Program-made: the position numbers and the translations under genes | In this document: piece after piece, positions 3,471 to 56,301 of the stretch | Layout of the letters: each line of letters opens with the position of its first letter | Position numbering within the stretch: the stretch's first letter is position 1 | From: Deltaproteobacteria bacterium | GTDB lineage: Bacteria > Myxococcota_A > UBA796 > GCA-2862545 | Direction of reading: 5' to 3' | Assembly (NCBI GenBank): GCA_006226595.1 | Contig: SBGP01000029.1 | Span: 1-64,000, forward strand | Length of the DNA stretch: 64,000 bases | The notes under the pieces: generated by a model | What the model was told of the DNA's origin: nothing | What the model saw: the letters and a program-made list of their open reading frames with translations, nothing else | Databases searched by the model: none

Positions 3471-5618
3471 GTGGCGAAGCCGGCCTCACCCGAGATCCAC
3501 CTCGTCGACTACTGGAACATCCTCGTGCGCCGCCGGCGCACGATTGCGCTGTTCACGGTCGCGCTGATGGTGGTGGTTCTCGTGGGCACGGCGCTGATGC
3601 CACGCGAGTACACCGCAAGCGCCACCGTCCAGATCGACCCCAAGGCCCCGCGCGTGTACAACTCCGGCGCCTCGGTGACCGAGAGCGTGCCGGTCTCCGC
3701 CTGGGGTGCCAGCCTCCAGCTGTACTACACCACGCAGTACCGGCTGATGGAGAGCCTGCCCGTGCTCGAAGAGGCGGTGCGCAAGCTCCGCGAAGAGCAC
3801 GCCGTCTCGGACTTCGACGAGGCCGAGAACCCGGCCAAGCTCCTCCGCAACATGATGACGGTGAAGCCGGATCCCGAGACCCAGCTCGTCCACGTGATGG
3901 TGACCACCGACGACCCCGACAAGTCGGCGCTGTTCGCGGATGCCATCGCTCAGGCCTACCTCGACAAGAAGGTCGAGCGGACCTTCGAGGACAGCCGCCT
4001 CGCGGTCGAGTGGCTCTCCGAGCAGCTCGCCATCTACCGGGACAAGAAGGTCCGGTCCGACGAAGAGGTCGAGCGCTACCGCTTCGAGCACTCGCTCGTC
4101 GGCGTCGAGGACAACTCCCACGTGAGCATGGGCACCCTCGAGAAGCTGCAGTCCGACTGGACGGCGGCGCACTCGCGCAGGGTCGCCGCCGAGGCCGCGT
4201 ACGAGGGCCTTCGCGACCTCGTCCGCACCCAGTCCTCGATCGTCGTCGCCGCCCACCTCGCCGATCAGGAGCCGCTGCTCCGCGACTCGCTCGACCGACG
4301 CGCCGAGCTTCTCCGCGAGAAGGGCCGCCTCGAGGCGCGCTACAAGTCCAAGCACCCCGAGGTCGTCGAAGTCTCCGCGGAGCTCGCGAAGGTCGAGGAG
4401 GGCATCAAGGAGTTCATCGGCGAGATCCTCGCGGCGCGCAAGGCGAAGCTCGCCCTGTCGACGACCGAAGAAGAGACCATTGCCAGGGCCATCGAAGAGG
4501 CGCAGCAGAGCCTCCAGTCGATGACCGATCACCTCATCGCGCTCAAGCTGCTCGAGAGCCAGGCCGACCGTGACGAGCGCTTCTACCGCGACCTCGACAC
4601 CCGCCTCACGGAGGTCGGCATCAGTCAGTTCTTGCAGGCGAGCAACGCGCGCCTCATCGAGAACGCGGTGCCGCCCCAGGCGCCGGCGAGCCCGCGCCCG
4701 CTGCTCAACTTCCTGATGTCCATCGTGCTCGGACTGGTCGGCGGCTCCGCCCTGGCGCTGATCCAGGAGTACTTCGACTTCGCGATTCGCTCGGTCGAGG
4801 ACGTCGCGGCCTACCTCGATGCGCCCTTCCTCGGCATGGTGCCCAAGGTCGAGTCCGCGCAGATCGAAGAGCTGCAGACGGCGGATGGCCAGCTGCTCTA
4901 CGTCCAGGCTCGGCCCCGCTCGGCGGTCTCCGAGGCCCTGCGCTCGATCCGCACCCATCCCTTCTTCCGGATGGCTGGCGGACGCTCCCGTCGCCTGCTG
5001 GTGACGAGCTCGATTCCTCGCGAAGGCAAGTCCTTCGTGAGCGCGAACCTGTCGGGCATCCTCGCGCAGTCGAACCTCAAGGTCCTGCTGATCGACGCCG
5101 ACATGCGCAAGCCCACCGTGCACAAGCTGTTCGGCATCCCGAACGACGCGGGTCTCGTCGACGTCGTCGGCGGCACCGCCGAGCTCTCCGAGGTCGTCAA
5201 GCACACCTCCGCCGGCGTGCACGTGCTCTCCGCGGGCATCGCGGGCGAGAACCCCGCGGACTTCGTCGGGCACGAGACCATCGAGCGGGTGCTCGCAGAG
5301 GCCGAGACGATGTACGACGTGGTCGTGCTCGACTCGCCGCCGATCTCGGCGGTGGCCGATGCCGCCGTGTTCGCCGCGGCGTGTGACGGCTTCATCTTCG
5401 TCGTCGACGGCTCGCGGACCAGCCGGGCCATCGCGCGCCCGAGCATCGACCGCCTGCGCGAGGCGAATACGAACCTGCTCGGCGTCGTGATCAACAAGGT
5501 CGGCACCGGGGCCGCGGGCTACGGGTACGGCTACGGCTACGGCTACGGCTACGGCTATGGCTACGGCTACGGCGAGCAGGAAGAGGGGCGTCCGGCGTCG
5601 TCCGGCGGCCGGCGCTAG
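3471..5618 (+). CDS. Wzc-like chain-length regulator fused to BY-kinase
   Basis: This 715-residue protein joins a Wzz domain to a bacterial tyrosine kinase. Two membrane helices (about 23-44 and 410-430) bracket a periplasmic coiled-coil region. The cytoplasmic kinase has Walker A (513-521, SSIPREGKS), Walker A' (538-544, VLLIDAD) and Walker B (about 617-624, ending DSPP). The tail is a run of nine Gly-Tyr pairs, in place of the usual scattered tyrosine cluster that is autophosphorylated in this family. Such proteins form the inner-membrane octamer that couples polymerisation to export through Wza. The start is a GTG with GGAGGG four bases upstream. It heads an apparent operon running to the flippase gene at 9266. 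Confidence 0.93.
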   Translation: MAKPASPEIHLVDYWNILVRRRRTIALFTVALMVVVLVGTALMPREYTASATVQIDPKAPRVYNSGASVTESVPVSAWGASLQLYYTTQYRLMESLPVLEEAVRKLREEHAVSDFDEAENPAKLLRNMMTVKPDPETQLVHVMVTTDDPDKSALFADAIAQAYLDKKVERTFEDSRLAVEWLSEQLAIYRDKKVRSDEEVERYRFEHSLVGVEDNSHVSMGTLEKLQSDWTAAHSRRVAAEAAYEGLRDLVRTQSSIVVAAHLADQEPLLRDSLDRRAELLREKGRLEARYKSKHPEVVEVSAELAKVEEGIKEFIGEILAARKAKLALSTTEEETIARAIEEAQQSLQSMTDHLIALKLLESQADRDERFYRDLDTRLTEVGISQFLQASNARLIENAVPPQAPASPRPLLNFLMSIVLGLVGGSALALIQEYFDFAIRSVEDVAAYLDAPFLGMVPKVESAQIEELQTADGQLLYVQARPRSAVSEALRSIRTHPFFRMAGGRSRRLLVTSSIPREGKSFVSANLSGILAQSNLKVLLIDADMRKPTVHKLFGIPNDAGLVDVVGGTAELSEVVKHTSAGVHVLSAGIAGENPADFVGHETIERVLAEAETMYDVVVLDSPPISAVADAAVFAAACDGFIFVVDGSRTSRAIARPSIDRLREANTNLLGVVINKVGTGAAGYGYGYGYGYGYGYGYGYGEQEEGRPASSGGRR
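5517..5573 (+). repeat. (GGC TAC)n tract encoding nine Gly-Tyr pairs
   Basis: A hexanucleotide tandem repeat, nine near-perfect units with two synonymous changes (GGG and TAT), encodes the tyrosine-rich tail of the BY-kinase. Short tandem repeats of this kind can gain or lose whole units by slippage without shifting the frame, which would change the number of phosphorylatable tyrosines. The repeat is seen directly; length variation is inferred. Confidence 0.9.
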
Positions 5619-5622
5619 CGCC

Positions 5623-6375
5623 ATGAGCGAGCTTCCCGAACCCGTGGACATCATGGGCGCGCCCGTCGCGCCGTGGACGATGTCGCAGACGGTCGGCTTC
5701 ATCGAACGAGCCATCGACGAGGGTCGCTTCCTCCAGCACGTCGTGGTCAACGCGACCAAGCTGGCCAACATGCGCACCGACCCGGGACTGCGCGAGGCGG
5801 TACTCGGCGCCGAGCTGATCAACGCCGATGGCATGGGCGTGCTGCTCGCGGGACGCGTGCTGGGTCGCCCGATTCCCGAGCGCGTCACCGGCATCGACCT
5901 GTTCGGAGAGCTGCTCGCGCTCGCCGAGCGCCGCGGGTGGGGCGTGTACCTGCTCGGAGCCAAGCCCGAGGTCATCGAGGTCTGCGCGGCCAAGGTCCGC
6001 GAGAAGTACCCCGACCTCGAGGTGCACTTCCACGACGGCTACTTCTGGGACGAGGAGGAGGCGCAGGTCGAGCGCGTGCGGGCGTCTGGAGCGAAGCTGC
6101 TGTTCGTGGGCATTTCCTCGCCGATGAAGGAGCAGTTCATCGATCGCTGGGGCGAGACCATGGGCGTGGCCTTCGCCATGGGAGTGGGCGGCACCTTCGA
6201 CGTGTGGGCGGGTAAGGTGCGTCGCGCCCCCGAAGGCTGGCAGCGGGCGGGCATGGAGTGGGCCTGGCGCGTGCGCGAGGAGCCTCGCCGCATGGCCAAG
6301 CGCGCGCTGACTACCAATACGCGCTTCTTGATGGCGCTCGCGCGAACCTGGGTGTCGGAGCGTCTTCATGTTTGA
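5623..6375 (+). CDS. WecG/TagA/CpsF-family glycosyltransferase
   Basis: A 250-residue protein of the WecG/TagA/CpsF family (GT26), which adds a sugar, classically N-acetylmannosamine, to undecaprenyl-diphosphate-linked GlcNAc at the cytoplasmic membrane. The family hallmarks are VVNATKLAN near the N-terminus, followed by INADGMGV around residues 64-72 with the catalytic-type Asp-Gly, and later GGTFDVWAGKVRRAP. I start it at the ATG at 5623, four bases after the wzc stop, because the family core begins just downstream; an upstream in-frame extension lies inside wzc. It overlaps the next gene by 8 bp, so the three genes are probably translated from one message. It likely adds the second sugar of the repeat unit. 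Confidence 0.88.
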   Translation: MSELPEPVDIMGAPVAPWTMSQTVGFIERAIDEGRFLQHVVVNATKLANMRTDPGLREAVLGAELINADGMGVLLAGRVLGRPIPERVTGIDLFGELLALAERRGWGVYLLGAKPEVIEVCAAKVREKYPDLEVHFHDGYFWDEEEAQVERVRASGAKLLFVGISSPMKEQFIDRWGETMGVAFAMGVGGTFDVWAGKVRRAPEGWQRAGMEWAWRVREEPRRMAKRALTTNTRFLMALARTWVSERLHV

Positions 6376-7756
6376 GCGCCGTGCGACCAGCTTCCGGCTG
6401 ATCTTCCTGTCCCTCGACCTGATCGCCTGGGCACTCGCGTTCGCCGCGGCCTGGCGTATTCGTCAGTCGCCGTACTTCGCTTCTCAGGGCGAGATTGCGC
6501 CGCTGGTCGAGTACCTGCCGTTCCTCGCCGTGGCCCTCTCCGCGCTGGTCCTCGGCGCGCTCGCCGGCTCCCGCGTCCGTCGCGGTGTCGCCGTGCTCGA
6601 CGAGGTCGGCGACGTCGCTCGGGGCACCGGGGCCGTGTTCATCGCGATGTTCGTCGTGCTCTTCGCCCTTCGCGTCGACTACTCGCGAATCATGTTCGGC
6701 TTGTGGGCCGTGCTCGCCGTCGTGCTCGTCGTCGCCCTGCGTCGGATGGCGCGCTCGGTGGCGTCGAACATGGACGGCTACCACCGACGCGTCGCCATTG
6801 TCGGCGACGGCCAGCTGCCGCACGAGCTCGCCAAGGCCCTACAGGTCCAGGGTGGGCTCGGCATCGAGTACGCGGGCGCGGTGCCGATCCACACGGACGG
6901 CAAGACGCCGATGCCGTGCCTGGGCACGCTCTCCGACATCCGGCGCATCATCCAGGAGAACGTGATCGACGAGGTGCTGTTCGTGGTCGGGCACGCGAAC
7001 CTCGCCGACATCGAGGTCGCGTTCATGACCTGCGAGGAGATGGGCGTCGAGACGCGGCTGGTCCTCGACTTCTTCCCGCACAAGCACTCGCGCATCCACC
7101 TGGACCACGTCGACGGCTACCCGGCGCTGTCCTTCGATGCGGCTGCGGGCGACGATCTGGGGCGTCTGCTCAAGCGCGTGTTCGATATCCTCGTCTCGCT
7201 GTGCTTCCTGGTGCTGGGCTCGCCGGTGTACGCCCTGGTCGCCCTCGCCGTGAAGCTCGACAGCAAGGGCCCGGTGTTCTTCTCGCAGGAGCGAGTCGGA
7301 CGTCACGGGCGGCCGTTCAAGGTGCACAAGTTCCGGTCGATGGTCACCGACGCCGAAGAGCTCAAGGCGGCGCTGATGGCGCAGAACGAGCGCGACGGCC
7401 CGGCGTTCAAGATGAAGGACGACCCACGGGTGACGCGCGTCGGCAAGCTCATCCGCAAGACCTCGCTCGATGAGATCCCGCAGTTCTACAACGTGCTCGT
7501 CGGCGAGATGAGCATCGTCGGGCCTCGGCCTCCGCTTCCCAACGAGGTGGCCCAGTACGACCACTGGCAGCGGCGCCGCTTGTCCGTGCGTCCTGGGATC
7601 ACCTGTCTGTGGCAGGTCTCCGGGCGTGGAGACGTGGACTTCGAGACCTGGATGCGCCTCGACCTGCAGTACATCGACAACTGGTCGCTGTGGCTGGATC
7701 TGAAGATCTTCCTGATGACCATCCCCGCCGTGCTCCTGCAGAAGGGCTCGAGTTGA
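6368..7756 (+). CDS. WcaJ-like initiating phosphoglycosyltransferase
   Basis: The 462-residue product is a polyprenyl glycosylphosphotransferase that starts the lipid-linked repeat unit by moving sugar-1-phosphate onto undecaprenyl phosphate. It has four N-terminal membrane helices, a soluble CoA-binding-like Rossmann region (about 130-250), a re-entrant helix near 265-290 and the C-terminal bacterial-sugar-transferase domain. That domain shows VHKFRSMVTDAE, KTSLDEIPQF and SIVGPRPPLPNE, the classic motifs with the Asp-Glu pair needed for catalysis. The gene overlaps the WecG-family gene by 8 bp and precedes the flippase by 31 bp. The first sugar cannot be read from sequence; glucose- and galactose-type enzymes look alike. 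Confidence 0.93.
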   Translation: MFERRATSFRLIFLSLDLIAWALAFAAAWRIRQSPYFASQGEIAPLVEYLPFLAVALSALVLGALAGSRVRRGVAVLDEVGDVARGTGAVFIAMFVVLFALRVDYSRIMFGLWAVLAVVLVVALRRMARSVASNMDGYHRRVAIVGDGQLPHELAKALQVQGGLGIEYAGAVPIHTDGKTPMPCLGTLSDIRRIIQENVIDEVLFVVGHANLADIEVAFMTCEEMGVETRLVLDFFPHKHSRIHLDHVDGYPALSFDAAAGDDLGRLLKRVFDILVSLCFLVLGSPVYALVALAVKLDSKGPVFFSQERVGRHGRPFKVHKFRSMVTDAEELKAALMAQNERDGPAFKMKDDPRVTRVGKLIRKTSLDEIPQFYNVLVGEMSIVGPRPPLPNEVAQYDHWQRRRLSVRPGITCLWQVSGRGDVDFETWMRLDLQYIDNWSLWLDLKIFLMTIPAVLLQKGSS

Positions 7757-45282: not shown

Positions 45283-45398
45283 GCCATTTTCGGGCGGGGC
45301 CTGTCCAAAACGTGTAAGATGCGCCGGAACGCGTGTCCGGTGCCTGCTTTCCTTCTGTGGGTACCGGTGGCTCGAGCCCTCACATCAGGGAAGCCTGC

Positions 45399-48300
45399 AT
45401 GTCCAGCTGGACCCCCCACCTCAAGAACGCCGCGCTCATCGCGGTCTCCCTCGCTGCCATGGGAGCCGCCCCCACGGCCTCCGCGCAGTCCTGTTCCGAA
45501 GATGCCGTCGCTTCCTGCGGCGAGATCTGGAACTTCCGCACCGGAACCGGCGGAAGCCTCGACAGCACGACGTGCGGCGGCGGCTACACCGGCAACGAGC
45601 TGATCTGGGAGTTCACTCCCCCGGCCGGGCAGGACGTCGTCCTCTGGGCTGAGATGATCAACTTCACGGGTCCGAGCCGGAACACGATGATGGCCGTCAT
45701 CGAGGATGCGTGCAGCTCGACCGCGGCATGCGTCGAGTTCGACACCGGCTCGTCGACCGGCGAGGACCTGTCGCTGTACTTCACCGCGGACGGCGGCACG
45801 TACTACATCCTCATGGATGGCGACGACCCGAGCCGCACCATCGGCTCGGACTACTTCCAGTTCGGCTGTCCGACCGAGGGCTGTGACATCGGTGGCGCGA
45901 CCCCCGACGTCATCACCTGCTCCACGGACATCGCGGGAACGACGGCCACCGGCACCACGGACGTGCTGGACTTCTACTACTGCGGCGATCCCTACCCGCG
46001 CCTGAACCAGGACAAGCCCGAGAAGGTCTACCAGTTCACGCCGCAGGCGACGGGCTCGGTCACGTTCACGCTCTCCGCGCTCTCCGCGGACCACGACCTG
46101 TACGTGCTCCTCAACTCCTGCGAGCAGGAGGGCTGCATCGCGAGCTCCGTGGTCGCGCGCACGGGCACCGACTCGGTGACCTTCGACGCGGTCGCGGGCA
46201 ACACCTACTACATCGTCGTCGAGACCTACTCCGGCATCACCGGTACCTTCAACCTCTCGTTCGAAGACAACACCGGCGGCTGTAACGAGGACTGCAACGA
46301 CGGCGTCGACAACGACTTCGACGGCGACATCGACTGCGACGACACCGACTGCGCCGGCGAGCCGGAGTGCGAGAACGCCGAGCTCTGCAATGGCGTCGAC
46401 GACGACAGCGACACCTTCGTCGACGAGGGCTACCCCGACGATGACGGCGACGGCACCAAGAACTGCGTCGACACCGAGACCTGCGACGGTGTGAACAACG
46501 ACCTCGACGGCCTGGTCGACGAGGGCTTCACCGACACCGACGGCGACGGCATCAAGGACTGCGTCGATACCTGCGTCGACACCGACGGCGACGGCTACGG
46601 CAACCCCGGCTACGGCAACACCTGCGCCAACGACAACTGCCCGACGGTGAGCAACCCCGGCCAGGCGGACGCGGACGGCGACGGCATCGGTGATGCCTGT
46701 GACACCTGCACCGACACCGATGGCGACGGCTACGGCAACCCGGGCTACGCGGCGAACACCTGCGCCACCGACAACTGCCCGAGCGTGTCGAACCCGACCC
46801 AGGCGAACGCCGATGGCGACGGCCTCGGTGATGCGTGCGACACCTGCACCGACACCGACGGCGACGGCTACGGCAACCCCGGCTACGCGGCGAACACCTG
46901 TGCCGAGGACAACTGCCCGACCATCTCGAACTCGAGCCAGGCCGACGCGGACTCCGATGGCCTCGGCAACGTCTGTGACGACTGCACCGACACCGACGGC
47001 GACGGCTACGGCAACCCCGGCTACACCGCCAACACCTGCACCAACGACAACTGCCCGACGGTGAGCAACCCGAGCCAGACCGACACCGACGGTGACGGCT
47101 TCGGCGACGTGTGCGACATCGAGACCTGTGACGGCGTCGACAACAACGGCAACGGCCAGGTCGACGAGGGCTTCGCCGATACCGATGGCGACGGCATCAA
47201 GGACTGTGTCGACACCTGCACCGACACCGACGGCGATGGCTACGGCAACGCGGGCTACGGCAACACCACCTGTGCCAACGACAACTGCCCGACGGTGAGC
47301 AACCCGAGCCAGGCCAACGCCGATGGCGACGCCCTGGGCGATGCGTGCGACACCTGCACCGACACCGACGGCGATGGCTACGGCAACCCCGGCTACCCCG
47401 AGAACACCTGCCCCGACGACAACTGCCCCAGCGTGTCCAACGCCTCGCAGGCCGACACCGACACCGATGGTATCGGCGATGCCTGTGACACCGAAGAGTG
47501 CGACGGTCGCGACAACAACGGCAACGGGCAGATCGACGAGGGCTACCCCGACACCGATGGCGACGGCACCAAGGACTGTGTCGACACGTGTACCGACACG
47601 GACGCGGACGGCTTCGGCAACCCCGGGTACACCGCCAACGTCTGCGCGAACGACAACTGCCCGAACACCTACAACCCGCTCCAGGGCAACGCCGATGGTG
47701 ACTCGCTCGGTGACGCGTGCGACACCTGTACCGACACCGACGGCGACGGCTACGGCAACCCCGGCTACGCGGCGAACACCTGCCCGTCCGACAACTGCCC
47801 GACGACGAGCAACCCGACCCAGACGGACACCGACTCGGACGGCACGGGCGACGCCTGTGACGACTGCGTCGACACCGATGGCGACGGCTACGGCAACCCG
47901 GGCTACGGCAACACCTGCGCCGACGACAACTGCCCGGTGACCAGCAACCCGGCCCAGGGCGACGTCGATGGCGACGGCACCGGTGACGTGTGCGACACCT
48001 GCACCGACACCGACGGCGACGGCTACGGCAACCCGGGCTACGCGGCGAACACCTGCCCCGACGACAACTGCCCGTCGGTGAGCAACGCCGATCAGGCCAA
48101 CGCCGATGGCGACGGCGCCGGCGACGTGTGCGACAACTGCACCGACACCGATGCGGACGGCTACGGCAACCCGGGCTACGCGGCCAACACCTGCCCCGAC
48201 GACAACTGCCCGACCATCAGCAACCCGTTCCAGCAGGACGCCGACTCCGACGGCACCGGCGACGTGTGCGACACCTGCACCGACACCGATGGCGACACCT

Positions 48301-51272
48301 TCGGCAACCCCGGCTACGGCAACACCACCTGCACCGACGACAACTGCCCGAGCATCGCCAACCCCGGCCAGGAAGACGGCGACGGCGACGGCCAGGGCGA
48401 CGTCTGTGACGGCGAGGACTGCGACGGCGTCGACAACGACGGCGACGGCGGCGTGGACGAGTTCTTCCCCAACGCCGACGGCGACGAGTTCGCGGACTGC
48501 GTCGACACCTGCACCGACACCGACGGGGACGGCTTCGGCGACCCGGGCTACGCGGGCAACACCTGCGCGCAGGACAACTGCCCGGGCGTGAGCAACCCCG
48601 GTCAGGAAGACGCGGACGGTGACGGCATCGGCGATGCCTGTGACACCTGTACCGACGTCGACAACGACGGCATCGGCGACGACAGCTACCCGGCGAACAC
48701 CTGCGGCGACGACAACTGCCTCACGGTGGCCAACGCCAACCAGCTCGACACCGACACCGACGGTATCGGCGACGTCTGTGACACCTGCACCGACACCGAC
48801 GGCGACGGCTTCGGCGACGCGGGCTACCCGGCGAACACCTGTGCGCAGGACAACTGCGTGGACGTGTCCAACCCGGGCCAGGACGACGAGGACGGCGACG
48901 GTCTCGGCGACGTGTGCGACACCTGCACCGACTCCGACGGCGACGGCTTCGGCGACACGGCGTTCTCCGCCAGCAACAGCTGCCCGGACGACAACTGCGA
49001 CGCCATCGCCAACCCGGGTCAGGAAGACGCGGACGCCGATGGCATCGGCAACGTCTGTGACGACTGCACCGACACCGACGACGACGGCTTCGGCAACCCG
49101 GGCTACCCGGCCAACACCTGTGTCGAGGACAACTGCCCGGTCGACTCGAACCCGGGCCAGGCCGACACCGACAGCGACGGCCTCGGCGACGTCTGCGACA
49201 CCTGCACCGACAGCGATGGCGACGGCGTGGGCGACCCGGGCTTCCCGACCAACACCTGTGGCGAGGACAACTGCCCGAGCATCGTCAACGCCGGCCAGGA
49301 AGACGCGGATGGCGACGGCACTGGCGACGTCTGTGACACCTGCACCGACGGCGACGGCGACGGCTTCGGCGACCCCGGCTACGCGCTGAACACCTGCCCC
49401 GAGGACAACTGCCCGGCCATCAGCAATGCTGGTCAGGAGGACGCGGACAGCGACGGTCTCGGCGACGTGTGCGACACCTGCACCGACACCGACACCGACG
49501 GCTTCGGAGACCCGGGCTACCTGGCGAACACCTGTACGCCGGACAACTGCCCGAGCATCAGCAACGCCGGTCAGGAGGACGCCGACAGCGACGGCCTCGG
49601 CGATGTCTGCGACGAGTGCACCGACACCGACGCCGACGGCTACGGCAACCCCGGCTACGGCAACACGAGCTGCACCGACGACAACTGCCCGTCCGTGTAC
49701 AACGCCGACCAGGCCGACAACGACGCGGACGGCCTCGGCAACGTCTGCGACAGCGAGTCCTGCGACGGCATCGACAACGACGGCGACAGCCGCGTGGACG
49801 AGACCTTCCCGGACACCGACGGTGACACCATCGCGGACTGCATGGACACCGAGGAGTGTGACGAGCTCGACAACGACGGCGACGGCAACGTCGACGAAGG
49901 CTTCGACGTCGACGGCGATGGCATCGCCGACTGCGTCGACACCGAGGAGTGCGACGGCGTCGACAACGACGGCGACGGCCTCGTCGACGACGACGACCCG
50001 TCCGTGGATGCGACCACCGGCAGCCTCTGGTTCGAGGACGCCGATGGCGACGGCTACGGTGATGTCGGCAGCAGCGTCTACGCCTGCGAGCAGCCCGATG
50101 GCTACGTGGCGAACTCCGAGGACTGCGACGACGTGCATGCGACGCGCAACCCCGGTGGCGCCGAGACCTGTGACGGCGTCGACAACGACTGCGACTACTA
50201 CGTCGACGAGGGTACCGAGTGCTCCGACGACGACGGCGACGGCCTGACCGAGCTCGGCGGCGACTGCGACGACACCGACGCGGCGGTTCGCCCAGGTGCG
50301 GTCGAGACCGCCAATGGCACCGACGACGACTGCGACACCATCACCGACGAAGAGACCGCGCTCACCGACGACGACAACGACGGTTACTGCGAGGGCTTTG
50401 ACCTGAACGCCGACGGCACCCCCGAGTGCTCGGACGGCTCGACGGTCGGTGACTGCAGCGACGGCGATCCGAACGTGAACCCGGCCGAGGGCGAGTTCGT
50501 CGGCAACGGCATCGACGACAACTGTGATGGCGTGGTCGACGACGACGTCGCCGACAACGACGGCGACGGCTACACCACCGGCGGCGGCGACTGTGACGAC
50601 ACCTCGTACACCACCCGTCCGGGCGGCAACGAGCTCCCGAACGACGTGGACGACGACTGTGACGGCGTGGTCGACGAGGGCACCCTGGTCACCGACGACG
50701 ACGGCGACGGCTTCTGCGAGGGCGTCGACATCGACCGCGACGGCACCCCGGACTGCACCGACGGCTCGACCCCCGGCGACTGCAACGACACCAGCACCGC
50801 TCAGGACCCGAGCGAGACCGAGGTCGCGAACGGCGCCGACGACGACTGTGACGGCCTTGTCGACGAGGGCAGCGACGTCTTCGACGACGACGGCGACGGC
50901 TTCTCCGAGACCGCGGGCGACTGCGACGACAGCAACCCGAACATCTACCCGGGTGCGGAGGAGATCCAGAACGGTCTCGACGACGACTGTGACGGTCGTG
51001 CCGACGAGAACAGCGAGGACCTCGACCGCGACGGCTACACCTCGGCGGACGGCGACTGCGACGACGAGAACGGCTGGGTCAACCCGGGTCTGGACGAGAT
51101 CTGCGACGACGGCATCGACAACGACTGCGATGACGAGGTCGACGAGGGCTGCGACACCGATGTGGTGGTGCCCGACGACGGCAAGTGTGGCTGTCAGTCC
51201 ACCACGCCGCTGACCGGCATCTGGCCGCTCGTCGGCCTGCTCGCCCTGCTCCGGCGTCGCCGCGCGGCCTAG
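45399..51272 (+). CDS. Giant TSP3/MopE repeat surface protein 2, MYXO-CTERM
   Basis: A 1,957-residue tandem paralogue of the preceding protein in its last 1,600 residues. The N-terminus is unrelated: a signal peptide (to about 31, ASA), two strand-rich PPC-like (pre-peptidase C-terminal) domains (about 33-165 and 170-300; TYYIVVETYSG is typical), then DCNDGVDNDFDGDIDC. The array has 21 TSP3-like units (about 390-1450), of which three have DNCL, DNCV or DNCD. MopE-like repeats follow, and a tail of CGCQ, a hydrophobic stretch and RRRR. I use the ATG at 45399, from which the signal peptide is well formed; 22 residues upstream in frame are not needed. The gap to the first gene is 116 bp. Confidence 0.93.
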   Translation: MSSWTPHLKNAALIAVSLAAMGAAPTASAQSCSEDAVASCGEIWNFRTGTGGSLDSTTCGGGYTGNELIWEFTPPAGQDVVLWAEMINFTGPSRNTMMAVIEDACSSTAACVEFDTGSSTGEDLSLYFTADGGTYYILMDGDDPSRTIGSDYFQFGCPTEGCDIGGATPDVITCSTDIAGTTATGTTDVLDFYYCGDPYPRLNQDKPEKVYQFTPQATGSVTFTLSALSADHDLYVLLNSCEQEGCIASSVVARTGTDSVTFDAVAGNTYYIVVETYSGITGTFNLSFEDNTGGCNEDCNDGVDNDFDGDIDCDDTDCAGEPECENAELCNGVDDDSDTFVDEGYPDDDGDGTKNCVDTETCDGVNNDLDGLVDEGFTDTDGDGIKDCVDTCVDTDGDGYGNPGYGNTCANDNCPTVSNPGQADADGDGIGDACDTCTDTDGDGYGNPGYAANTCATDNCPSVSNPTQANADGDGLGDACDTCTDTDGDGYGNPGYAANTCAEDNCPTISNSSQADADSDGLGNVCDDCTDTDGDGYGNPGYTANTCTNDNCPTVSNPSQTDTDGDGFGDVCDIETCDGVDNNGNGQVDEGFADTDGDGIKDCVDTCTDTDGDGYGNAGYGNTTCANDNCPTVSNPSQANADGDALGDACDTCTDTDGDGYGNPGYPENTCPDDNCPSVSNASQADTDTDGIGDACDTEECDGRDNNGNGQIDEGYPDTDGDGTKDCVDTCTDTDADGFGNPGYTANVCANDNCPNTYNPLQGNADGDSLGDACDTCTDTDGDGYGNPGYAANTCPSDNCPTTSNPTQTDTDSDGTGDACDDCVDTDGDGYGNPGYGNTCADDNCPVTSNPAQGDVDGDGTGDVCDTCTDTDGDGYGNPGYAANTCPDDNCPSVSNADQANADGDGAGDVCDNCTDTDADGYGNPGYAANTCPDDNCPTISNPFQQDADSDGTGDVCDTCTDTDGDTFGNPGYGNTTCTDDNCPSIANPGQEDGDGDGQGDVCDGEDCDGVDNDGDGGVDEFFPNADGDEFADCVDTCTDTDGDGFGDPGYAGNTCAQDNCPGVSNPGQEDADGDGIGDACDTCTDVDNDGIGDDSYPANTCGDDNCLTVANANQLDTDTDGIGDVCDTCTDTDGDGFGDAGYPANTCAQDNCVDVSNPGQDDEDGDGLGDVCDTCTDSDGDGFGDTAFSASNSCPDDNCDAIANPGQEDADADGIGNVCDDCTDTDDDGFGNPGYPANTCVEDNCPVDSNPGQADTDSDGLGDVCDTCTDSDGDGVGDPGFPTNTCGEDNCPSIVNAGQEDADGDGTGDVCDTCTDGDGDGFGDPGYALNTCPEDNCPAISNAGQEDADSDGLGDVCDTCTDTDTDGFGDPGYLANTCTPDNCPSISNAGQEDADSDGLGDVCDECTDTDADGYGNPGYGNTSCTDDNCPSVYNADQADNDADGLGNVCDSESCDGIDNDGDSRVDETFPDTDGDTIADCMDTEECDELDNDGDGNVDEGFDVDGDGIADCVDTEECDGVDNDGDGLVDDDDPSVDATTGSLWFEDADGDGYGDVGSSVYACEQPDGYVANSEDCDDVHATRNPGGAETCDGVDNDCDYYVDEGTECSDDDGDGLTELGGDCDDTDAAVRPGAVETANGTDDDCDTITDEETALTDDDNDGYCEGFDLNADGTPECSDGSTVGDCSDGDPNVNPAEGEFVGNGIDDNCDGVVDDDVADNDGDGYTTGGGDCDDTSYTTRPGGNELPNDVDDDCDGVVDEGTLVTDDDGDGFCEGVDIDRDGTPDCTDGSTPGDCNDTSTAQDPSETEVANGADDDCDGLVDEGSDVFDDDGDGFSETAGDCDDSNPNIYPGAEEIQNGLDDDCDGRADENSEDLDRDGYTSADGDCDDENGWVNPGLDEICDDGIDNDCDDEVDEGCDTDVVVPDDGKCGCQSTTPLTGIWPLVGLLALLRRRRAA
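46561..49757 (+). repeat. TSP3-like tandem repeat array of giant protein 2
   Basis: Twenty-one in-frame direct repeats of about 138 bp, related to those at 40670-43762 and in the same order of variant units. Long direct repeats of this kind, twice in 9 kb, could recombine to delete or fuse the two genes. Confidence 0.9.
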
Positions 51273-53931: not shown

Positions 53932-56301
53932 CTACTTCGATGCCGCGGCGAAGAAGTCCGCCTGGTCCCGGTAGGGCATGCCCAGTCGCCGCGCGAAGGA
54001 CTCGTCGCTGTCCCGGTCCCCGACCATCAGGCAGTTCGCGGGATCGAGCTCGTAGCGGAGCAGGAACTGGAGAGCCATGCCGGGGAGGGGCTTGCGGCAC
54101 CAGCAGCCGACCGGCCGATGGGGATGGGGGCAGTAGGCGATCTCGATGGGCAGACCCAGCAGCTCGACAGTGCGCTCCGCGGCCTCCTCGACGCCGTCGA
54201 TCGACACCTGGCCGAGCGCGACCCCCGCCTGGTTGGAGACGCCGAACAGGCGCCACCCGGCGTTCGCATACTGCTCGAGGACCTCCTTCCGATGCGGCAT
54301 CAGGTGCACCTCGCCGGCGTTGCGCGGGAACGGGGGCCCGCCGCGGGTCTCACGCACGGTGCCGTCGAGGTCGAGGAACAGGCCGCGGCCGCCGCCGTCC
54401 TTCCACACGCGCTGGAACGGAATGCGGGAGATGCGCGAGAAGCCCTCTCGACTCGTCGGCGGCTCGAAGCTCGCGTACCAGCGGCTGAGCGCGGCTGGCG
54501 GGAAGCAGTTGGCCACGGTCTTGCCCTGCTCGACGATCTCGCTGGGCGACAGGTTGCGGCCGTTGCGTTCGATCAGCCGCTTTGCCGCGTTGATCGCGGC
54601 CTCGTGCTCGGGCACGTCGAGCCACACCAGGTCCACGCCCGCCCCATGCTGCCGCGCGACGTCGACCACGCCGCGTCGACTCTTCTCGGTCGGGTAGGTG
54701 TTGTCGAGCACGACGCGCTCACCGGCGGCCAGCCTGGTCGCGAGCTTCGGGAGGAGGTCGTCGAGTCGGCCACCCTCGTCGTCGCGGTTCAGGCGCGACC
54801 AGCCCTGGTCGAGCAGTGGCTTCACGCTGCTGGTCTTCCCGGCTGCAGGCGGACCCATGACGATGCGTACCGATGCTTCTGGCCACACCCGGGCCGAGCC
54901 GTGGCCAAAGGCGGCGTCGAGTGTGCCCAGCTGCGGTCCGGTGAGCGCGACGGTGCGTGCGGTCGCGCTCGCCGTGATGCTCTCGGGTCGGGTGGCTCCG
55001 GGGATGGCCACGATGTGCGGCCCGAGCGACAGCGTCCACGCCACGGCCAGGGTGTGTGGGTCGACGGCGAGCTCGCGACCGACCTCGACGAGCACGTCGT
55101 GCGCCGCGGTTCGTGCGCTCTTGCGGTATCCGCCGGCGGGTGAGTGGGCGATGACCCCGAGGCCGAGCTCTGCCGTACGGGCGAGCAGGCCCTGCTGCAC
55201 CGCCGCGCGGTCGAAGGGACTGATGCGGAGCTGCACGACCTCCACGGGGGCCACGCCCAGGGCGAGGTCGAGCTGCTCGGCGTCGACGTTGCACACGCCG
55301 AGGTGGCGAACCTTGCCCTCGTCCACGAGCCGTGCGAGCTCACCCATGCTCTCCTCGATGGGGACGCGCGGGTCGACGGCGTGCAGCTGAAGCAGGTCGA
55401 GGGCTTCGACGTCGAGCGCGCGCAGCGAGCCTTCCACGGCCTCGCGCAGGTGGTCCGGGTGGCCGTTCGGCAGCCAGCGTCCGTTGGGGCGAACCAGGCC
55501 ACACTTGGTCGCGACGATGGTGTCGTCGCGCTTCGCGATCTCCCGGAGCAGGCGCTCGTTGTGGTGCGCGTCCTCGTTGCTCTGGCAGTAGGCGTCTGCC
55601 GTGTCGAACAGCGTCACGCCGGCATCGAGGGCCGCGGCGAGTACCGCCCGCGCCTGTGCCTCGTCCGGTCGATCCGCGGTGCTGAGCCGCATGCAGCCGA
55701 GCCCCACGGGGCTCACCTCGAAGGGGCCGAGCGATCGCGTCTGTCCCGCCGCCGCCATGGGCAGCGAGGGGGGGGGCGCGGCGCGAGGCCGGTCGTCGAC
55801 GGTCGGGGCCGGCGGGGTCGCCGGGACCGTCTCGCGCGTTGGCGTGGGGACCGCGTGGTCCGAGAACAGGTCCCACGCCGCCGCGTCTTCGAGGTCCTCG
55901 GAAGCCTCGGCCACCGACCTCCCCGCCAGGTTGACCACGGTGTGGCCGCCCAGGCGCGCGACCTCGACGGGCTGGCAGATCACGACCGGGCGTCGCCCCC
56001 CACCCGCAGGCACCGGCCCTACGGCGACGAACACATCGCCTGCCACGATGCGATCGAGTACCAGCTGCTCCATCGACTCGGGCACGGCCCATCGCGAGCG
56101 CGGCGACCCCGACACCCAGCGCCCCACGGCCGTCACCGGCACACCCAGACCCAGCGCGAGCTCGCCGTTGGACAGGGGAGGCTCGAACGCGTTCTGGATG
56201 CGTTGGACGACCTCGATGAGCGCGGCCTTGCGCTGCTTGACCTGCTCGGCCAGCGCGGCTTCGGCGGCCTTCTTGGCGGCGGGAGTCAGGGGCATGGGCA
56301 C
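53932..56301 (-). CDS. HTH-aldo/keto reductase-P-loop kinase-HAD phosphatase fusion
   Basis: This protein of about 789 residues joins four parts (numbered from the inner ATG at 56295). Residues 40-80 hold an XRE-like helix-turn-helix (LSNGELALGLGVPVTAVGRW). Residues about 188-465 are an aldo/keto reductase with an intact Asp231, Tyr236, Lys264, His305 tetrad. Residues about 476-605 are a P-loop kinase like polynucleotide kinase (GPPAAGKT 481-488, RLNRDDEGG, DNTYPTEKSRR). Residues about 636-787 are a HAD-IIIA phosphatase (DLDGT 642-646, GVSNQAGV, a GmhB/HisB-like zinc loop with Cys722, Cys731, Cys733, GDRDSD 759-764). No site is degenerate. The GTG at 56301 has better ribosome-site spacing (GGGGG, six bases) than the ATG. 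Function is unknown; nucleic-acid end or sugar-phosphate repair is possible. Confidence 0.88.
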   Translation of the reverse strand: MPMPLTPAAKKAAEAALAEQVKQRKAALIEVVQRIQNAFEPPLSNGELALGLGVPVTAVGRWVSGSPRSRWAVPESMEQLVLDRIVAGDVFVAVGPVPAGGGRRPVVICQPVEVARLGGHTVVNLAGRSVAEASEDLEDAAAWDLFSDHAVPTPTRETVPATPPAPTVDDRPRAAPPPSLPMAAAGQTRSLGPFEVSPVGLGCMRLSTADRPDEAQARAVLAAALDAGVTLFDTADAYCQSNEDAHHNERLLREIAKRDDTIVATKCGLVRPNGRWLPNGHPDHLREAVEGSLRALDVEALDLLQLHAVDPRVPIEESMGELARLVDEGKVRHLGVCNVDAEQLDLALGVAPVEVVQLRISPFDRAAVQQGLLARTAELGLGVIAHSPAGGYRKSARTAAHDVLVEVGRELAVDPHTLAVAWTLSLGPHIVAIPGATRPESITASATARTVALTGPQLGTLDAAFGHGSARVWPEASVRIVMGPPAAGKTSSVKPLLDQGWSRLNRDDEGGRLDDLLPKLATRLAAGERVVLDNTYPTEKSRRGVVDVARQHGAGVDLVWLDVPEHEAAINAAKRLIERNGRNLSPSEIVEQGKTVANCFPPAALSRWYASFEPPTSREGFSRISRIPFQRVWKDGGGRGLFLDLDGTVRETRGGPPFPRNAGEVHLMPHRKEVLEQYANAGWRLFGVSNQAGVALGQVSIDGVEEAAERTVELLGLPIEIAYCPHPHRPVGCWCRKPLPGMALQFLLRYELDPANCLMVGDRDSDESFARRLGMPYRDQADFFAAASK

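Follow-up and report, generated by a model that had tools for sequence, protein, structure and literature searches.

The gene and its domains

The window analysed here is a stretch of 64,000 nucleotides from contig SBGP01000029.1 of a deltaproteobacterial genome, and it contains a gene that encodes a protein of four parts (Table 1). The frame is uninterrupted from 56301 to the stop codon at 53932-53934. The alternative start is a GTG at 56301, from which the residue numbers below are counted. All 12 homologous N-termini share the methionine at 56295, and therefore the ATG at 56295 is the likely start codon, giving a protein of 787 amino acids. Behind the N-terminal domain, the Pfam and NCBIfam results give the order aldo/keto reductase (AKR), kinase, and HAD phosphatase in one chain.

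Table 1. Positions of the four-part gene and its domains in the window.
Feature	Position	Strand	Evidence
Whole four-part gene	53932..56295	-	787 aa from conserved ATG; open frame
Private N-terminal domain, ~148 aa, without known family	55852..56295	-	Profile of the domain; no Pfam or PDB match
AKR domain with Asp-Tyr-Lys-His tetrad	54913..55743	-	PF00248, E 1.7e-50; tetrad; AKR fold in model
PNKP-type P-loop kinase domain (GKT, NRD, DNT)	54394..54888	-	AAA_33 (PF13671), E 5e-12; PNKP is the profile's best solved match
HAD-IIIA phosphatase domain, live, zinc loop CPH...CWC	53935..54390	-	TIGR01662 and PNK3P above cut-off; motifs

The three enzymatic domains have the identities that a sequence-only reading had given them. 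The AKR domain scores 172 bits against a Pfam cut-off of 24, which places it in the aldo/keto reductase superfamily, and Foldseek confirmed the fold on the predicted model. Its tetrad consists of D233, Y238, K266, and H307. AKR13-type and related enzymes, such as AKR13B2 (8hnq), perakine reductase (3v0s), and the pyridoxal reductase PdxI, share the fold, the tetrad, and about 27-30% identity, but unlike the fusion they are stand-alone enzymes acting on small carbonyls. The kinase match to AAA_33 is above the Pfam cut-off. With its P-loop GK[ST], an NRD containing the general-base Asp, and PNKP as nearest solved relative, the domain belongs by sequence to the PNKP/Pnk 5'-kinases in the broad sense. 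The phosphatase domain scores 72.1 bits against the cut-off of 44.6 for TIGR01662 (NCBIfam) and has the DxDGT and GD motifs of HAD-IIIA phosphatases; it also matches PNK3P (PF08645, E 1.3e-6), while PNK-3'Pase in NCBIfam is below cut-off (3.8e-17). In the window copy the HAD motifs DLDGT, SN, and GD are present along with the kinase motifs and the zinc ligands.

The protein does not belong to the narrower families that were compared. It scores 61.9 bits against the PNKP equivalog TIGR01663, for which the curated cut-off is 502.8, and its HAD domain scores 37.7 bits against GmhB TIGR00213, for which the cut-off is 149.6. There was no match among the known anti-phage defence proteins in PADLOC-DB. 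In the predicted model the kinase and HAD domains are good (pLDDT about 90), the AKR is of fair quality, and the N-terminal domain is poor; the pTM is 0.48, and the arrangement of the AKR relative to the kinase is not reliable.

A neighbouring gene on the plus strand (45390-51272) encodes a 1960-aa protein with many thrombospondin type-3-like calcium repeats and a MYXO-CTERM tail. It resembles the myxobacterial cell-cohesion protein MtsC, below cut-off, and together with the tail this makes Myxococcota the probable phylum of the window.

Recurrence and two forms of the fusion

The fusion is real, old, and selected. A search of 379 genomes of the window's phylum with a kinase-HAD profile, followed by reading of the frames, gave 34 AKR-kinase-HAD fusions including the window's, from 29 of these genomes and one Dormibacterota MAG. 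The carriers within the phylum are spread over many families, and in three more genomes a contig edge cuts the kinase-HAD end. Among the contig matches listed, at least one fused relative, that of the Dormibacterota MAG, lies beyond the phylum; it could be due to transfer or mis-binning. Another copy, of three parts, is present in the genome of the window (G000:C117:150362-152134; L026:8354-10147); its HAD is dead and its zinc loop intact. In none of the 34 proteins has the AKR tetrad, the P-loop, or the catalytic Asp of the kinase been lost. The recurrence across genomes and the second copy therefore show that the fusion is old and selected and is no assembly join. An assembly or annotation artefact is next to impossible: the draft assembly of the window's genome has 117 contigs, but the same one-frame order in 29 of the 379 genomes, including assemblies of one and two contigs (G205, G356), and in the second copy refutes it. 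The sequence-only reading had described a one-frame fusion of four parts and had proposed looking for the AKR-kinase-HAD order elsewhere; it held that homologues confined to separate genes, or an assembly join, would count against it. The open frame and the 34 fused proteins answer these points in its favour.

No fusion was found on plasmids or phages, where the matches are mostly separate HADs and the stand-alone form of the kinase-HAD unit, respectively. When the flanks of the bacterial fusions were clustered all against all with heuristic gene calls, no neighbour family was tied to the fusion, and no conserved repair gene or operon was found.

The fusions occur in two forms that differ in the HAD domain. 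Form 1 comprises 14 proteins including that of the window, with an intact HAD and usually the N-terminal domain. Form 2 comprises 20 proteins including the second copy in the window's genome, and in every member DxDGT, motif II, and the GD motif are gone; the zinc Cys-His-Cys-Cys is retained in all 20. Form 2 is a single clade in the kinase tree (support 93/79). Live and dead forms are found together in the window's genome, in G061, and in G250. The claim that the window copy has three intact catalytic sites under selection agrees with its motifs and with dN/dS values of 0.10-0.28, indicating purifying selection, across all segments of a close pair. When close form 2 pairs are compared, the HAD core appears relaxed (0.43-0.66), while their AKR, kinase, and zinc end are under stronger constraint (0.08-0.35); the HAD core of form 1 is constrained (0.10 and 0.26). 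Since the pairs are few and the segments short, this contrast is only indicative.

The constant partnership is that of AKR and kinase, with the phosphatase optional. The HAD is dead in 20 of the 34 fusions while the AKR and kinase are intact, so the phosphatase is no obligatory third step. The joint three-step pathway proposed earlier needs revision in this respect, the AKR and kinase being paired in all 34 proteins. In form 2 the zinc end must serve some other purpose. Two live-HAD fusions (L025 and L071) are the opposite of the dead-HAD clade, keeping the catalytic motifs without the zinc ligands. The window's genome also has a 1305-aa frame (L032:9364-13278; G000:C51) with a weakly similar HAD-IIIA domain at its end.

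The N-terminal region is evidently a real conserved domain that is private to the fusion. Its profile (A5) has matches in 14 of the 379 genomes, all of which have a live-HAD fusion, and none was found outside the fusion in these genomes. The domain always lies in the form 1 gene, except in G040, G052, and G250, where it and the cut kinase-HAD end are on different short contigs, as a single gene split between them would be. No form 2 protein has the domain, and two of form 1 (L024, L068) lack it as well. An XRE-like helix-turn-helix had been proposed for this region, and that identity is rejected. For the first 148 residues of the window protein and 11 homologues there was no sensible Pfam match and no HTH at E<=1; there was no sequence match among the solved structures of the PDB, and the models were unconfident both in the full chain and with the domain folded alone. 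The domain may bind nucleic acid.

Relatives of the kinase-HAD unit

The kinase-HAD unit is closest among solved structures to mammalian PNKP. When its profile was compared with all of them, PNKP ranked first in both domains (E ~3.5e-41), followed by GmhB/HisB phosphatases, and bacterial Pnkp1 and T4 Pnk were far behind. PNKP (FHA-phosphatase-kinase; PDB 1yj5, 3zvl, 3u7e) shares the P-loop, NRD, DNT, the EGF..IPF tail, and a DxDGT phosphatase, but the fusion has the kinase before the phosphatase, a zinc loop in the HAD, and an AKR in front. With this order and no FHA match in Pfam, it does not have the architecture of eukaryotic PNKP. The kinase-HAD order is that of phage and bacterial end-healing enzymes (T4 Pnk, jumbo-phage PNK-HAD, and bacterial Pnkp1). 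The phage PNK-HAD forms, however, lack the AKR and the N-terminal domain, and the sequences of T4 Pnk and Pnkp1 are far more remote. The HAD-IIIA phosphatases of the GmhB/HisB-N type share the HAD core with its four-ligand zinc loop, but the fusion's HAD falls well short of the cut-offs for GmhB and HisB, and in its family it is always joined to the kinase.

Without the AKR, the unit is found as a stand-alone gene of about 315 amino acids in very large phages, with roughly 35-46% identity per domain. There are 25 such loci in IMG/VR, on contigs of up to 481 kb, in addition to records of 595 and 462 kb. In several phages an RNA ligase is encoded no more than 5 kb from the gene, and 16 of 20 phage records with the unit encode a PF09414 RNA ligase. 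An AKR is found in only two of the 20 records, unlinked to the kinase-HAD gene, and a phage AKR linkage is not supported; viral contigs scanned for AKRs yielded none or distant ones, two of which misaligned and were left out of the structure prediction. In some large phages (L099:7270-8556; L106:3793-4989 and 6259-7236; L108) PNK-HAD is near a WGR-PARP gene, a NAPRTase, and a PRPP-synthetase-like gene, which suggests a cluster for NAD salvage and end repair. At two other phage loci (L114:4980-5929 and L115) the kinase and HAD halves are in two overlapping frames (4980-5417, 5390-5929), either a split gene or a frameshift.

In the kinase tree the phages form one side (96/93); the bacterial stand-alone genes come next, and all of the fusions follow (89/89, not fully secure). 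In a quick tree the fused AKRs split from seven sampled stand-alone AKRs with support of 100. The simplest history would be one fusion event and then one loss of HAD catalysis. One bacterial kinase-HAD protein without an AKR (L074; G221:C6:7747-8679) is the reverse of the dead-HAD clade, with altered kinase motifs (DRD, ANG) and an intact HAD.

End healing is the well-supported, and best-supported, reading of the kinase-HAD half, because PNKP is the top match and because the PNK-HAD proteins of a jumbo-phage survey were described as RNA end-healing enzymes (PMC7824862). The earlier comparison of the pair with enzymes of polynucleotide end repair is supported by the PNKP match in both domains. 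As to the target, the sequence leans to DNA, as in PNKP, and the phage context to RNA. A PF09414 ligase is found in 15 of 32 fusion genomes and in 49 of 344 others (p 3.5e-5, uncorrected for genome size or ancestry). The other 17 fusion genomes, that of the window included, have no PF09414 match, and an obligatory Rnl partner is not supported. RtcB is present in the window's genome.

Possible functions of the fused protein

The best explanation, tentative and with somewhat less than an even chance, is that the protein is a polynucleotide end-healing enzyme, in which a PNKP-type 5'-hydroxyl kinase and, in the window's form, an active 3'-phosphatase are fused to an NAD(P)H-dependent AKR for carbonyl-blocked ends. 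Radical attack at C5' of the sugar produces a break in which one end carries a 5'-aldehyde and the other a phosphate. In the simplest chemistry, the AKR would reduce the aldehyde to a 5'-OH, which is the substrate of polynucleotide kinase, and the kinase would phosphorylate it. The HAD would take off the 3'-phosphate, giving a ligatable break. Breaks with a 5'-aldehyde and a 3'-phosphate or phosphoglycolate are made by neocarzinostatin and calicheamicin (PMC3825254). In RNA attacked by hydroxyl radicals the 5'-aldehyde is the main product, and borohydride converts it to a 5'-OH (PMC4227780).

The dead-HAD clade bears on this order of steps. The AKR and kinase are kept and the phosphatase silenced in the whole clade, suggesting that reduction and then phosphorylation occur on the same end. 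A pathway of AKR and kinase for 5'-aldehydes would explain why both persisted after the death of the phosphatase. With the phosphatase dead in 20 of the 34 fusions, complete end healing is excluded as a general function. The fuller proposal is a one-chain enzyme for radical-damaged ends that carries out all three steps, and whose phosphatase turned into a non-catalytic zinc module in the second lineage; it is rather doubtful. We infer the nucleic-acid activity of the fusion protein, and likewise the substrate of its AKR and DNA or RNA as its target. Against end healing are the resemblance of the AKR to small-carbonyl reductases, the lack of a conserved repair neighbour, and the lack of a PF09414 match in the window's genome.

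It is rather unlikely that the substrate of the three domains is a metabolite (a sugar, an aldehyde, or a nucleotide) and not a nucleic-acid end. The closest relatives of the AKR and the lack of conserved repair neighbours would fit such an enzyme, as would the GmhB/HisB likeness of the HAD and the diversity of AAA_33 kinases, but the kinase matches mammalian PNKP far above any metabolite kinase, EGF..IPF tail included. The genomes of the phage relatives are rich in RNA ligase, and a kinase and a phosphatase working on one metabolite would be futile.

In Kv-beta AKR subunits, redox sensing by the bound cofactor has been proposed. A similar role here, with the state of bound NAD(P)(H) gating the activity or localisation of an end-healing kinase-phosphatase and turning repair on under oxidative stress, is unlikely. 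It would account for the fusion without a shared substrate, and Kv_beta is among the weak matches of the AKR (1.3e-11, below the NCBIfam cut-off). The tetrad is conserved in 34 of 34 proteins, as in Kv-beta, though full conservation exceeds the strict need of sensing, and there is no sign of coupling between the domains.

Repair specific to RNA is very doubtful. The protein would heal tRNA or rRNA ends cut by ribotoxins, with the AKR treating a modified or oxidised RNA end before an Rnl-type ligase seals it. The ligases of the phage relatives, the greater frequency of PF09414 in fusion genomes, and the mainly 5'-aldehyde ends of radical RNA cleavage (PMC4227780) are consistent with this, but the ligase association is uncorrected, 17 of the 32 fusion genomes lack a match, and the nearest kinase is the DNA-acting mammalian PNKP.

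The literature searched contained no fusion of a redox enzyme with a PNKP-type kinase. The healing of carbonyl-blocked ends by such a fusion, if true, would mean that an enzyme resolves 5'-aldehyde ends directly. The resolution of these ends in enediyne breaks has been termed 'essentially unknown' in a review (PMC3825254), and the fusion protein offers a concrete handle on it. The analysis also connects an end-healing family of large phages with genes on bacterial chromosomes and describes a private domain that is new.
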